This document shows, in pieces, positions 9,385 through 34,516 of a stretch of 34,516 nt of DNA (position 1 is the first letter of the stretch; each line of letters starts with the position of its first letter). The notes below the pieces were generated by a model, which was given only the letters and a program-made list of their open reading frames with translations, did not search any database and was not told where the DNA came from. The DNA is taken from assembly GCA_002897935.1 (NCBI GenBank), contig BDTA01000089.1, positions 5,001 through 39,516 on the forward strand, read 5' to 3'. The stretch is from a bacterium BMS3Abin08 (lineage in GTDB: Bacteria; Nitrospirota; Thermodesulfovibrionia; Thermodesulfovibrionales; JdFR-85). Both the position numbers and the translations under genes were made by a program.

Positions 9385-9478
<94 letters not shown>

Positions 9479-9653: not shown

Positions 9654-9782
9654 CTCCTGGATGCAGTCGGGTAGCAGCCCTGCGCACGAGGAGGATGTGA
9701 ACCCCGCCAGGTCCGGAAGGGAGCAACGGTAAGCATCTCTAATCGGTGCCGCAGTCAGTTGTTGCCCGGCTGCATTGAGGAG
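9654..9782 (+). ncRNA. ffs: Signal recognition particle RNA (small bacterial type)
   Basis: The domain IV hallmark CGCCAGGTCCGGAAGGGAGC (GGAA tetraloop, asymmetric loop bases) lies at 9705-9724, followed by AACGG. The outer helix is visible: ATGCAGTCGGG (9661-9671) pairs with CCCGGCTGCAT (9765-9775), and CTCCT (9654-9658) extends it with GAGGAG (9777-9782). The RNA binds Ffh and targets nascent membrane proteins. The location directly before dnaX is a familiar bacterial arrangement. Exact ends are approximate. Confidence 0.92.
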
Positions 9783-30000: not shown

Positions 30001-31284
30001 GTGAAGCTGAGAAGATCGAGAAAGTTATTCAAAAAAGCCGTTGATTTTATCCCCGGAGGGGTGAACAGTCCCGTAAGGGCATTCAAGGCCGTAGGTGGAG
30101 ACCCACTGTTTATCAGCCGTGCAAAGGGCTCAAGGATATATGATGTGGACGGCAACGCATATATAGACTATCTTCTCTCCTGGGGACCCATGATACTCGG
30201 ACATGCCCATCCAAGGGTCGTAAAGGCGCTGAAGAAGGCCATAGAAAACGGGACGAGTTTCGGCGCTCCTACCGAACTGGAGATTATCCTTGCACAGATG
30301 CTCATCCAGGCATATCCATCGATGGATAGGGTGAGGATGGTTAATTCAGGGACTGAGGCTGCCATGAGCGCCATAAGGGTTGCCAGGGGATATACGGGGA
30401 GGGAAAAAGTAATAAAGTTCGAGGGCTGTTATCATGGGCATGCAGATGGTCTCCTTGTGAAGGCGGGCTCCGGTGCAACAACCTTCGGGGTGCCTGACAG
30501 CCTGGGGGTGCCCAGGTCGTATGCGAGACAAACAATCACCCTTCCGTTTAACGATATCAAGGCAGTGAAAGAAGTTATCGAGAAGGGCTGGAAGGAGATT
30601 GCCTGTATAATACTTGAGCCGGTTGTTGGAAATATCGGCTGTGTTCTTCCGAAAAAGGGCTTTCTTACAGGGTTGAGAAAGATTACCAGGAAGTACGGTA
30701 TAGTGCTTATATTTGACGAGGTCATGACGGGCTTCAGGGTTTCTTACGGTGGAGCACAGGGGTACTATGGTATAAAACCGGACATGACCTGTCTGGGAAA
30801 AGTCATTGGTGGCGGTTTACCTGTAGGTGCCTACGGTGGGGAAAATGATATTATGTCGATGCTTGCACCTGAGGGTCCTGTTTATCAGGCGGGTACTCTC
30901 TCAGGCAACCCCCTCGCAATGACTGCGGGAATAGAGACCCTGAAGGTGCTCGCCGGGAAGAGGGCATACGAAAGACTTGAGGAGAAGGCATCAATGCTTG
31001 AAGCCGGGCTTAGGGACGTCTCAAAAAGGGCTGGTGTAAAAACGGTTTTCAACAGGGCCGGGACGATGTTTTGTACCTATTTTACAGATTCTCCTGTTTA
31101 TGATTATAATACTGCCAGAAAATGCGATACGGAGAGGTTCGCAAGGTTCTTCAGGGGAATGCTTAAAAGGGGAGTGAATATTGCTCCAAGTCAGTTTGAG
31201 GCAGGATTTATCTCCCTTGCACATACGGATAAGGATATAGAGAAGACAGTAGGGACCGCGTATGAGGCAATGAAGGAGCTTTAG
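30001..31284 (+). CDS. hemL: Glutamate-1-semialdehyde 2,1-aminomutase
   Basis: This 427-residue PLP enzyme makes 5-aminolevulinate from glutamate-1-semialdehyde, the C5 route to heme. The PLP lysine is Lys267 in [68 protein letters not shown] and FDEVMTGFR are family hallmarks. The GTG start gives the standard N-terminus [20 protein letters not shown], with GAGG twelve bases upstream. It directly precedes a multiheme cytochrome cluster, so heme supply and use are adjacent. Confidence 0.97.
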
Positions 31285-31349: not shown

Positions 31350-32327
31350 TTGAAAGGTCTTAGCTGGATCAGAGAAAGCCTGACGCTGAAGGGCAGAATT
31401 ATCATTGCCGTACTTTCTCTTGTGATAATTGTCGGGGGAGGAGTTATAGCCTTCAAGTTTTATGACTTTACCCAGAACAACCCGAAGTTCTGTGTCAGTT
31501 GTCATCTTATGAAGCCCGCATATGATGCCTGGAAGAAGAGCAAGCATGCAGGCATAAACTGTCACGAGTGTCATCATCTCACAATTCCCGAACAGAACAA
31601 GCTGCTTGTTACTTTCGTACTCCACAGGCCGAAGTCTGTGCCGCAGCGCCATGGAAAGGTTATCGTGCCGTGGAAGTACTGTATTAAATGTCACTGGGAT
31701 AAGGACAAGAGATATCCCAACGCCCCGCTTATTAATAGTTCGCCCGGGCATGCAAAGCATTACTTTATGGAGCAGATCGAATGTGCAAAGTGTCACGGAT
31801 ATATCACCCATAAATTTGTTGCTGCGGCGAGGTTCTGTCTCAGGTGTCACCAGGGGAAAGAGGTGCATGGTGCGGGGATGCAGAAGCTCGCCTGTCTGAA
31901 CTGCCATACTGACAGAACCCAGAATCTCAAACCGGGAAGAAAGAAATGCCTCTTCTGTCACGGGAACAGCTCGATAAGAATGGAGCTTGTAGCTGACGAC
32001 ACGCTTGATGTGAAGTATTTCCGGCCCTCTGAAGAGCTGATACAGAAGGCTATAAAGATTAATGTCCCAAAAGATGCACCCATGCAGTTTTATTGTTATA
32101 AATGTCATAAACCACATGAGAAGTTGCGGCCGGATTACGGTACCTGTATGAGCTGTCATAGTCAGATAGTGAATGTCGGCAGGCATAAGTTGCATGTACA
32201 GAAAATGGGGCTGCAGTGTACTACCTGCCATAAACCTCACTCATGGAGAGTAAGTAAGAAAGCAGCCAAAAAGATCTGTACGCAGTGCCACGAATACAGA
32301 AATCCCCTTTCCTTTATAGGCTCTTAA
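31350..32327 (+). CDS. Membrane-anchored 11-heme cytochrome c (NapC/NirT-like N-terminus)
   Basis: This 325-residue protein has an uncleaved N-terminal anchor (about 16-36) and eleven CxxCH motifs: CVSCH, CHECH, CIKCH, CAKCH, CLRCH, CLNCH, CLFCH, CYKCH, CMSCH, CTTCH and CTQCH. The first two, with KPAYDAWKKSKHAG between them, resemble the quinol-dehydrogenase NapC/NirT module. The rest is a dense heme chain. TTG at 31350 is the start, with GAGGAGG seven bases upstream. It faces the periplasm and likely exchanges electrons with the following 4-heme protein, ferredoxin and NrfD-like subunit. Confidence 0.93.
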   Translation: MKGLSWIRESLTLKGRIIIAVLSLVIIVGGGVIAFKFYDFTQNNPKFCVSCHLMKPAYDAWKKSKHAGINCHECHHLTIPEQNKLLVTFVLHRPKSVPQRHGKVIVPWKYCIKCHWDKDKRYPNAPLINSSPGHAKHYFMEQIECAKCHGYITHKFVAAARFCLRCHQGKEVHGAGMQKLACLNCHTDRTQNLKPGRKKCLFCHGNSSIRMELVADDTLDVKYFRPSEELIQKAIKINVPKDAPMQFYCYKCHKPHEKLRPDYGTCMSCHSQIVNVGRHKLHVQKMGLQCTTCHKPHSWRVSKKAAKKICTQCHEYRNPLSFIGS

Positions 32328-32340
32328 GGGAAAGAGAGGA

Positions 32341-32361
32341 CGGGGATCTTTATATGCCCCG
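32341..32361 (+). other. Intergenic hairpin between the cytochrome genes
   Basis: CGGGG (32341-32345) pairs with CCCCG (32357-32361), followed by TTTAAATTATAAAG rather than a T-run. It is probably an mRNA-processing or stability hairpin, not a full terminator. Confidence 0.35.
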
Positions 32362-32402
32362 CCCTTTAAATTATAAAGTAATTCAAGTAGGAGGCGCTTA
32401 TT

Positions 32403-32873
32403 ATGAAGAATCATGTGCTTCGGCCGTTGTTTGTTGTCATTGCCGTTATTGCTCTCATTCTGGTAGCCCGCTATTTCTATGTCCCTTCCGATTTTGGGAT
32501 CTATGAAAGGGGCTTTATGTACGGCTATCACCGGAAGAGTAACGAGGGGGAGTGGAAGGCCTTTAAGGTAAAGTATCGCACCCGGGAATACTGTAAAGAC
32601 TGTCATTCGGATAAATATAAGAGCATAATGGCCTCAAAGCATCGCATAATCCAGTGTGAAAACTGCCACGGACCTGCTATTGATCATCCTGAAAATCCGC
32701 CGAAACTGACTATCGACAGGAGCAGGGCTCTCTGTAAACGTTGTCATACCTACTTGCCCTATCCCACAAGTAAGCGGGCAACGATAAAGGGCATTGATCC
32801 GAAAAAGCATAACCCTGATATGGAGTGCAGTTCGTGTCATAACCCACACAAACCAGACATGGAGGGTTGGTAA
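32403..32873 (+). CDS. Membrane-anchored 4-heme cytochrome c
   Basis: This 156-residue protein has an N-terminal hydrophobic anchor (about 8-24) and four CxxCH motifs: CKDCH, CENCH, CKRCH and CSSCH. CKDCHSDKYKSIMASKHRIIQ looks like the start of a compact tetraheme fold. TAGGAGG lies before the ATG. Its TAA overlaps the ATG of the ferredoxin gene by one base, which argues for a fixed complex. The specific family is not clear to me. Confidence 0.92.
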   Translation: MKNHVLRPLFVVIAVIALILVARYFYVPSDFGIYERGFMYGYHRKSNEGEWKAFKVKYRTREYCKDCHSDKYKSIMASKHRIIQCENCHGPAIDHPENPPKLTIDRSRALCKRCHTYLPYPTSKRATIKGIDPKKHNPDMECSSCHNPHKPDMEGW

Positions 32874-33643
32874 TGAAGCTAACGAGAAGAGATTTTTTAA
32901 TGACAGCCCTGCGGGGAACAATTGCCACCGCACTTCCTATCGGTGCGTTTAAGTTTCTGAAGCCCTCGGAGGCGAGGGCGGCAATAGCGGGAACGAATGT
33001 CCGGTGGGGATTCCTTGTTAATACTTATAAGTGTATAGGTTGCGGTTTCTGTGTTAAGGCCTGCAAGCTTGAAAATGATGTGCCTTACAATGTTGAGGTA
33101 ACGAGAACCTGGGTTGAAAGGTACGTGATCCTGAAAGACGGTCGTTTTCTTGCCGATACGCCTATGGGAGGACGGGACGGTTTTACAGACTCGAAGGTGC
33201 AGGACGAGGAGGTAAAGAACGCGGAGATTGCAAAGGGCTTTTTTGTTCCAAAGCTCTGCAATCAGTGCGAAAATCCGCCATGTGTTCAGGTCTGTCCCGT
33301 TGGTGCAACCTACCAGACCGCCGATGGTGTCTCGCTTGTCGACAGGTCCTGGTGCATAGGATGCGGGTACTGCATCATGGCATGTCCCTATGGTGCAAGA
33401 TTCTTTCACCCTGTGTACAAGACTGCTGAAAAATGCACCTTCTGCTATCACAGGATTACCAAGGGCATGAAGCCTGCCTGTGTTGATGCCTGTCCGACCG
33501 GTGCAAGGCAGATCGGCAACCTCAAGGACCCGAACGACCCCGTCACAAAGGTGATTCTGAATGAGCGGGTTGGGGTGCTTAAGGATGAATATGGAACAAA
33601 ACCACAGGCCTATTATATTGGTCTGGATAAAAACGTGAGGTGA
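32873..33643 (+). CDS. Tat-exported four-cluster ferredoxin (NrfC/PsrB-like)
   Basis: This 256-residue iron-sulfur subunit has a Tat signal (TRRDFLMTALRG, about residues 4-15). Four cluster motifs are seen: CIGCGFCVKAC, CNQCENPPCVQVCP, CIGCGYCIMACP and CTFC...CVDACPTGA. The arrangement is that of the NrfC/PsrB/DmsB family, which passes electrons between a catalytic or cytochrome partner and an NrfD-type membrane subunit. GGAGGG sits just before the ATG. It is followed five bases later by the NrfD-like gene. No molybdopterin subunit is encoded up to the window end. Confidence 0.95.
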   Translation: MKLTRRDFLMTALRGTIATALPIGAFKFLKPSEARAAIAGTNVRWGFLVNTYKCIGCGFCVKACKLENDVPYNVEVTRTWVERYVILKDGRFLADTPMGGRDGFTDSKVQDEEVKNAEIAKGFFVPKLCNQCENPPCVQVCPVGATYQTADGVSLVDRSWCIGCGYCIMACPYGARFFHPVYKTAEKCTFCYHRITKGMKPACVDACPTGARQIGNLKDPNDPVTKVILNERVGVLKDEYGTKPQAYYIGLDKNVR

Positions 33644-33647
33644 TATC

Positions 33648-34516
33648 ATGATAGAGAGTTATGTTCAAGAAGCTCAGTGGACAATAAAGGAGCTCTTTGT
33701 ATATCCGAATGAGTTTATATACTGGAGTATCCAGATCGTTATGTACCCCCTTATGACAGGGCTTGTTGCGGGCGCCTTTGTGCTCAGTTCGCTGTATCAC
33801 GTATTCGGACAGAAGGACCTTAAGGATATGGCAAAGTTTTCCCTCGTTTTTTCTTTTGCTCTCCTGCTTGTTGCTCCCGTGCCGCTGCTGTTCCATCTCC
33901 AGCATCCGCTCCGGGGAATGCAGGTCTTCTTCACCCCCCACTTTACGTCTGCCATATCCGCCTTTGGTATCGTCTTCTTCGCCTACTCGATAATTGTTAC
34001 AACGGAGATATGGTTTGTTTACAGGAAGCACTTTGTTGAGAAAACCCTTGAGCTTAAGGGCAAGGAGGGCCTGGGCAACACCGCAGTGCGGCTTCTGTAT
34101 AACGTTTTAACCCTCGGCGCCTATGATATCGGTGAGGAGGCCCTGCAGAAGGACGAAAAGGCGATAAAGATACTTGCAGGGTTTGGTATCCCGGTTGCCT
34201 GTTTCCTCCACGGTTATGCGGGGTTCATCTTCGGCTCCGTCAAGGCAAACGCCCTGTGGATGACTCCACTTATGCCGGTTATTTTTATCATGTCTGCGAT
34301 TGTCTCGGGTATTGCACTATGCATGCTGACATATATAGTAATAATGGAATGGAAGAAGTTCAGGATAAAGACCTCCAGAAAGCCCTGGGAGGTTACAGCC
34401 GAAGAGGTTGCAGGTGTGGAGATCGATCTGATGAGTAAGACCTCCAAATACCTCGTAGGGTTCATGATCGCCGCCATTACCCTTGAGATCCTCGACCTCA
34501 TCTTCAGGGGATATAC
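33648..34516 (+). CDS. NrfD/PsrC-like quinone-interacting membrane subunit (3' end cut)
   Basis: The frame is open from ATG at 33648 to the window end (about 289 codons seen). GAGGTGATATC precedes the ATG. Many hydrophobic helices are visible, for example YPLMTGLVAGAFVLSSLYH, FSLVFSFALLLVAPVPLLF, ISAFGIVFFAYSIIV, FGIPVACFLHGYAGFIFG and PVIFIMSAIVSGIALC. FHLQHPLRGMQVF and FLHGYAGF carry residues typical of the NrfD/PsrC quinone site region. It anchors the preceding ferredoxin to the membrane and exchanges electrons with menaquinone. Any catalytic subunit or end of this operon lies beyond the window. Confidence 0.9.
   Translation, partial: MIESYVQEAQWTIKELFVYPNEFIYWSIQIVMYPLMTGLVAGAFVLSSLYHVFGQKDLKDMAKFSLVFSFALLLVAPVPLLFHLQHPLRGMQVFFTPHFTSAISAFGIVFFAYSIIVTTEIWFVYRKHFVEKTLELKGKEGLGNTAVRLLYNVLTLGAYDIGEEALQKDEKAIKILAGFGIPVACFLHGYAGFIFGSVKANALWMTPLMPVIFIMSAIVSGIALCMLTYIVIMEWKKFRIKTSRKPWEVTAEEVAGVEIDLMSKTSKYLVGFMIAAITLEILDLIFRGY

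Follow-up and report, generated by a model that had tools for sequence, protein, structure and literature searches.

A widespread tetraheme cytochrome, ferredoxin and NrfD-like gene trio beside an 11-heme cytochrome gene in a Nitrospirota genome: a candidate menaquinol:cytochrome oxidoreductase

Which electron-transfer system is encoded where multiheme cytochrome genes stand in a row with the gene for a quinone-binding membrane protein and no catalytic gene adjoins them? The question is raised by the last four genes of a 34,516-nucleotide (nt) window, the whole stretch of DNA analysed here, from the Nitrospirota bacterium BMS3Abin08, whose 2.6 Mb draft genome is 96% complete. Read as open reading frames (ORFs), these plus-strand genes encode an 11-heme cytochrome, a 4-heme (tetraheme) cytochrome, a ferredoxin with a twin-arginine translocation (Tat) signal and an NrfD-like protein. 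A preliminary description of the window had likened them to the Nrf, Qrc and alternative complex III modules lacking a catalytic subunit, a likeness that our analysis bears out, and had regarded the composition as one that could not be named. A name can be given, since precedents exist (PMC7327174, PMC11434368, PMC13047784): the last three genes, hereafter the trio, probably encode a menaquinol:multiheme-cytochrome oxidoreductase of the NrfBCD/SirCD kind without a dedicated terminal enzyme, a reading to which sequence comparison leads us to assign a probability of roughly 0.6.

The order 4-heme, ferredoxin, NrfD is constant across the neighbourhoods read in Nitrospirota, Desulfobulbales and Gammaproteobacteria, apart from a few loci that a contig end truncates or that simple ORF calling obscures. 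Of 296 Nitrospirota genomes sampled, 73 encode the full 11-heme protein (counted at >300 bits) and 88 the trio NrfD; both are present in 65, one only in 8 and 23, respectively, and neither in 200, counts that are uncorrected for relatedness. The trio NrfD was also found in 45 of 116 Desulfobulbales genomes, none of which holds a full-length 11-heme protein (one gave a partial match to a shorter relative). Among the groups tested, the 11-heme gene is confined to Nitrospirota, mostly behind hemL. The quartet anticipated by the preliminary description thus recurs in most Nitrospirota; the 11-heme gene is missing beside the trio in some Nitrospirota as well as in Desulfobulbales and Gammaproteobacteria, and several genomes carry it without the trio, so that the four genes do not form one indivisible unit. 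From these neighbourhoods and genome counts, it follows that the trio is the conserved core and the 11-heme protein a lineage-specific companion. The spacing of the genes had been described as tight throughout, which is true of the trio, with a 1-base overlap (TAATG) followed by a 4-base gap, and not of the 11-heme gene, which is separated by 75 bases from the 4-heme gene downstream and by 65 bases from the end of hemL upstream.

The window ends with its contig (C89), within the NrfD gene. Its last 119 bases overlap a second contig (C84) with 118 of 119 bases identical, and across the join the reading frame amounts to 414 amino acids. The order NrfD-AtpI recurs within uninterrupted contigs of relatives, which makes the join very likely correct; with the overlap, that gene order led us to reject an artefact of the contig end. 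Hairpin-like sites (consensus matches only) come after NrfD on C84, and then the genes for a small membrane protein resembling AtpZ and for AtpI (PF03899). Reading beyond position 34516 could have revealed a known Qrc, Nrf or Psr catalytic subunit, and none follows: across the join onto C84, the sequence 3' of NrfD holds no gene for a molybdopterin subunit, QrcB, NrfA or another catalytic protein. The AtpZ-like and AtpI genes (L006:17910-18500) stand without the remaining ATP synthase operon alongside, and AtpI trails the trio in relatives too.

Table 1. Features of the locus. Coordinates are positions within the window unless a contig is named.
Feature	Position	Strand	Remarks
hemL (glutamate-1-semialdehyde aminomutase, heme biosynthesis)	30001..31284	+	upstream neighbour, context only
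11-heme c-type cytochrome, 325 aa (amino acids), N-terminal NapC/NirT/NrfH-like membrane anchor	31350..32327	+	11 CxxCH; PF03264; NrfH similarity; 33-row alignment
First heme motif of the 11-heme protein, CVSCHLM (CxxCHxM)	31491..31511	+	matches aligned NrfH stretch
Tetraheme cytochrome c, 156 aa, N-terminal membrane anchor, NrfB/DsrJ position	32403..32873	+	4 CxxCH
Tat ferredoxin	32873..33643	+	RR motif (LTRRDFLM), 16 Cys
NrfD-like integral membrane quinone subunit, residues 1-289 of 414	33648..34516	+	PF03916; runs off contig end
Rest of NrfD gene	contig C84, L006 bases 19200 down to 18706	-	join to C89

Elsewhere in the window are a tRNA gene (9385-9474) and the bacterial small signal recognition particle RNA (9671-9768).

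Membership of the NrfD-like protein in the NrfD/PsrC superfamily, with an NrfC-type partner, is clear from its PF03916 match (108 bits; cut-off 25.8), the adjoining 16-Cys ferredoxin and a fold match to ActC and PsrC. It falls far short of the specialised models: a full-length orthologue scored 37 bits against 347.6 for TIGR03148 NrfD (37-47 bits across tests), 31 against 350 for DsrP and 22 against 570 for QrcD. A tree places the NrfD-like proteins in a group of 10 rows with 99/99 support, which includes one paralogue as sister and is separate from DsrP, DsrP-like, HybB and QrcD-like proteins, although several reference branches are long and the deeper branching order is unsure. Mean identity in the two NrfD alignments, A1 and A4, is 74% and 72%. 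Solved structures searched with NrfD by single sequence and by profile returned no relative. The AlphaFold model of an orthologue has nine long helices (predicted local distance difference test score, pLDDT, 79.6), and its best Foldseek match is ActC of alternative complex III (E 1.1e-7, template modelling score 0.60-0.68), followed by ActF and PsrC.

The quinone site bears on the direction of electron flow. In the numbering of the window protein, Y33, H83, S101, Y113 and R351 are invariant in the alignments of the family; the comparison with other families was made on an alignment that holds a QrcD-like protein and HybB in place of the characterised QrcD. H83 takes the position of E. coli NrfD His74, a helix-2 His as in NrfD and ActC; the helix-2 residue has been tabulated across the family (PMC8076601). 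S101 and Y113 correspond to QrcD Ser138 and Tyr150, and both are kept. Y33 occupies the position of the essential Asp70 of QrcD (Asp58 of HybB), where PsrC also has Tyr, and QrcD Tyr110 (HybB Tyr99) is not conserved. Mutagenesis has shown that QrcC cannot do without Tyr113, nor QrcD without Asp70, Tyr110, Ser138 and Tyr150, and the same paper discusses the corresponding residues of HybB and PsrC (PMC13059093). The site therefore looks more like that of NrfD/PsrC than that of the QrcD/HybB quinone reductases, and the Tyr at the Asp70 position, the loss of Tyr110 and the helix-2 His, few as these positions are, favour a quinol-oxidising site over a quinone reductase of the Qrc/Hyb type.

The two partners of the NrfD-like protein fit the description first given of them, a separate 4-heme protein and a four-cluster ferredoxin. 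The tetraheme cytochrome has a mean identity of 63% over 22 sequences, and the 16 cluster Cys of the ferredoxin are conserved in relatives. Tyr166 of the ferredoxin, within CIGCGYC, takes the position described for QrcC Tyr113.

The 11-heme gene starts with TTG, preceded by GAGGAGGAAG. Its 11 CxxCH motifs in 325 residues cannot be chance, as shuffling these residues 20,000 times gave a mean of 0.10 and a maximum of 3, and all 11 positions are conserved in 33 relatives save one Cys in one sequence. The NapC/NirT-like start noted earlier also stands, in that an N-terminal helix is followed by a PF03264 match (31 bits; cut-off 24.1) covering profile positions 7-73 of 174 only, which places the protein in the NapC/NirT family. 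Residues 27-76, from the anchor through heme 2 and with the CxxCHxM motif, resemble NrfH (2j7a), and the remainder consists of c7/c3-like repeats; on the model of the NrfH equivalog (TIGR03153) the protein scores 49 bits, against a cut-off of 134.2. CxxCHxM is present at heme 1 in 26 of 35 relatives, and in a second subfamily at the same gene position CxxCHVHD replaces it. Tried as a marker of 11-heme proteins without a trio, CxxCHxM gave no clear split. In some relatives (L053:7700-8731, L060:5087-6076, L061:8227-9219, L080:7824-9929) the motif of heme 9 is CX3CH where the others have CX2CH, and in the L057 protein one Cys of heme 6 is missing. The genome itself holds a second 11-heme copy, alone on contig C116 and 71% identical, as well as, on C118, a shorter relative with 10 hemes. 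In 25 of 35 cases read, the Nitrospirota 11-heme gene immediately follows a hemL on the same strand; the linkage of hemL with the 11-heme gene or the trio, seen at 30001-31284 of the window and in 25 relatives, is kept in Nitrospirota. Downstream of the 11-heme gene at L063:7645-14375 and L064:7630-14398 come genes for another ferredoxin/NrfD pair, for a PhsA-like molybdoenzyme and for a 12-heme cytochrome; there, a different complex adjoins the same 11-heme cytochrome.

How, then, might the trio work? We infer that the tetraheme cytochrome, the ferredoxin and the NrfD-like protein assemble as a membrane-bound complex, in which menaquinol would be oxidised at the periplasmic side of NrfD and electrons would reach the membrane-tethered tetraheme cytochrome by way of the ferredoxin and its four Fe-S clusters. 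From there they would be handed to the membrane-anchored 11-heme cytochrome and on to periplasmic or outer redox partners. The order of the trio, which equals that of E. coli nrfB-nrfC-nrfD, supports this scheme, as do the invariant quinone-site residues, the fold match to ActC, the co-occurrence of the 11-heme gene with the trio NrfD and published precedents. E. coli NrfBCD likewise joins a periplasmic multiheme cytochrome c, a four-cluster Tat ferredoxin and an NrfD with a helix-2 His; it differs in having a soluble pentaheme NrfB where the window encodes an anchored tetraheme protein, and eight helices in NrfD where the model of the ~414-residue protein has nine long ones. A hidden NrfA partner (PF02335) gave no match in the 96%-complete genome, and the same search recovers that of E. 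coli; with no NrfA and an NrfD below the TIGR03148 cut-off, the locus is not an NrfABCD nitrite reductase.

Also alike in composition are Shewanella SirCD and Geobacter CbcSTU (Cbc4), which combine a ferredoxin with a membrane quinone subunit, and in Cbc4 also a c-type cytochrome, and have no dedicated catalytic subunit (PMC11434368). The likeness drawn here is one of gene composition, and that paper mentions no 11-heme subunit; it does cite SirCD as functionally substituting for CymA. Clusters of NrfD, ferredoxin and multiheme cytochromes have been proposed as menaquinone:cytochrome c oxidoreductases, and those of the Methanoperedenaceae belong to the same gene-cluster class with the same proposed role, although they are archaeal and are likened here by cluster composition (PMC7327174). 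Assemblies of a similar kind are already known (PMC7327174, PMC11434368, PMC13047784, PMC6303296); the trio itself was not described in the literature searched, a search that reached few subscription papers. Alternative complex III (ActABCDEF) shares the best fold match and the function of passing electrons from quinol to cytochrome c, whereas the neighbours here are hemL and AtpZ/AtpI-like genes, and neither an ActB-like gene, which would fuse a molybdopterin-like and an Fe-S part, nor any other Act gene is among them.

Several points weigh against the scheme. ActC owes its top rank in part to the choice of NrfD-family members with a solved structure, the direction of flow is inferred from few residues, and in the literature helix-2 His versus Asp makes no clean split between quinol oxidases and quinone reductases. 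AlphaFold modelled the 11-heme protein poorly (pLDDT 51), with only the anchor and first heme region usable. Moreover, since either the 11-heme gene or the trio can be present alone, the 11-heme protein need not belong to one complex with the trio, and it may serve as a wire, as a quinol dehydrogenase in its own right, or as both. It is possible, although we put this tentatively, that it is an independent quinol dehydrogenase of the NapC/NrfH/CymA type and a periplasmic wire, with the trio as a neighbour only, a reading compatible with our explanation of the trio itself. The NapC/NirT domain above cut-off, the NrfH-like CxxCHxM at heme 1, the lone copy on C116 and the genomes in which the gene has no trio, in one setting beside a PhsA-like molybdoenzyme, all speak for independence; the row shared with the trio in most Nitrospirota and the strong co-occurrence speak for partnership. 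In the CxxCHVHD subfamily, quinol oxidation by the protein would be dispensable, because CxxCHxM has been lost there in the same gene position, and no counterpart of the quinol-site Lys and Asp of NrfH was recognised. It seems decidedly doubtful that the operon builds a hybrid quinol oxidase on a single heme wire, in which heme 1 of the 11-heme protein would offer one quinol-oxidising anchor, of the NapC/NrfH type, and NrfD a second and different one, so that a 15-heme chain would receive electrons at two points; no published complex of such composition is known to us.

Electrons might also run the other way, through a Qrc-like periplasmic cytochrome c:menaquinone reductase with hydrogenase, formate dehydrogenase, sulfide or extracellular donors. 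The building blocks equal QrcA, QrcC and QrcD, as in the QrcABCD of Desulfobacterota, where a multiheme cytochrome, a ferredoxin and an NrfD-family subunit are coupled to menaquinone. A quinone-reducing partner would be useful, because the relatives belong largely to anaerobic lineages and ORF translations of the genome include DsrMKJOP-like genes and a DsrC-like gene; S101 and Y113 of the Qrc site and path and the QrcC Tyr of the ferredoxin are retained. We nevertheless consider this direction unlikely, given that no QrcB-like gene lies on either side of the join, that the QrcD model scores far below its cut-off, and that Asp70 and Tyr110, key residues of the proposed proton path and essential in QrcD (PMC13059093), are replaced. 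Replacement of Qrc by the trio was considered and dropped: no QrcD match was obtained in the 116 Desulfobulbales genomes with or without the trio, and the controls also gave none. It is highly improbable that the trio is a DsrJOP-like part completing or supplementing DsrMKJOP in cytoplasmic sulfite/DsrC-trisulfide chemistry. Its order and types do equal dsrJ-dsrO-dsrP, and the ferredoxin comes close to the DsrO model (188; cut-off 200); however, a DsrMKJOP-like row is already present elsewhere in the genome (C79), the NrfD subunit scores low for DsrP and falls outside the DsrP clade, and one whole genus (f6/g10) of the same order lacks the trio.

A published counterpart, the dsrOhPh-tetrahaem locus of cable bacteria and relatives, is a stand-alone set of tetraheme protein, ferredoxin and NrfD-family protein in a proposed route from quinone to periplasmic cytochromes (PMC13047784); unlike the window trio, its proteins cluster near DsrP. 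Its equivalent here is most likely the set at L082:5846-8607 on contig C98, whose DsrP-like protein reaches 406 bits against the cut-off of 350, and not the window trio. That set closes a row (L082:3405-8607) of Rieske, cytochrome b, 5-heme, 4-heme, DsrO-like ferredoxin and DsrP-like genes, the last three of which resemble the published locus. Sets of this type directly follow a window-type trio in several relatives (e.g. L089, L092, L094, L112, L121, L131), and the trio NrfD is present in 27 of 29 genomes with a cytochrome b of the C98 type.

Outside Nitrospirota, a DUF2339-type polytopic membrane protein adjoins the trio at 31 loci (e.g. L105:4374-6176, L157:9227-10909), mostly divergent in Desulfobulbales and co-directional in Gammaproteobacteria, which suggests a partner of the trio there; as a universal partner it was rejected, as it was not found in the BMS3Abin08 genome. 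A paralogous trio of 4-heme, ferredoxin and NrfD genes in a Desulfobulbales genome (L213:3834-8163) is directly followed by a gene for an octaheme protein of the hydroxylamine oxidoreductase (HAO) family (4qo5 at 6.6e-41, HAO at 1.3e-12). In this, the nearest paralogous trio (L168/L213), NrfD is 39% and the tetraheme protein 27% identical to those of the window. The trio at L213 would exchange electrons with its multiheme enzyme, a setting that also supports our reading of the window trio, which has no dedicated enzyme and has the 11-heme companion instead.

The trio is thus highly conserved, with a mean NrfD identity of ~72% across three phyla, and widespread among the Desulfobulbales and Nitrospirota sampled. 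The direction of electron flow decides what it would mean for these organisms: respiration through periplasmic cytochromes, as our reading of the trio would have it, or the feeding of the quinone pool from periplasmic cytochromes.

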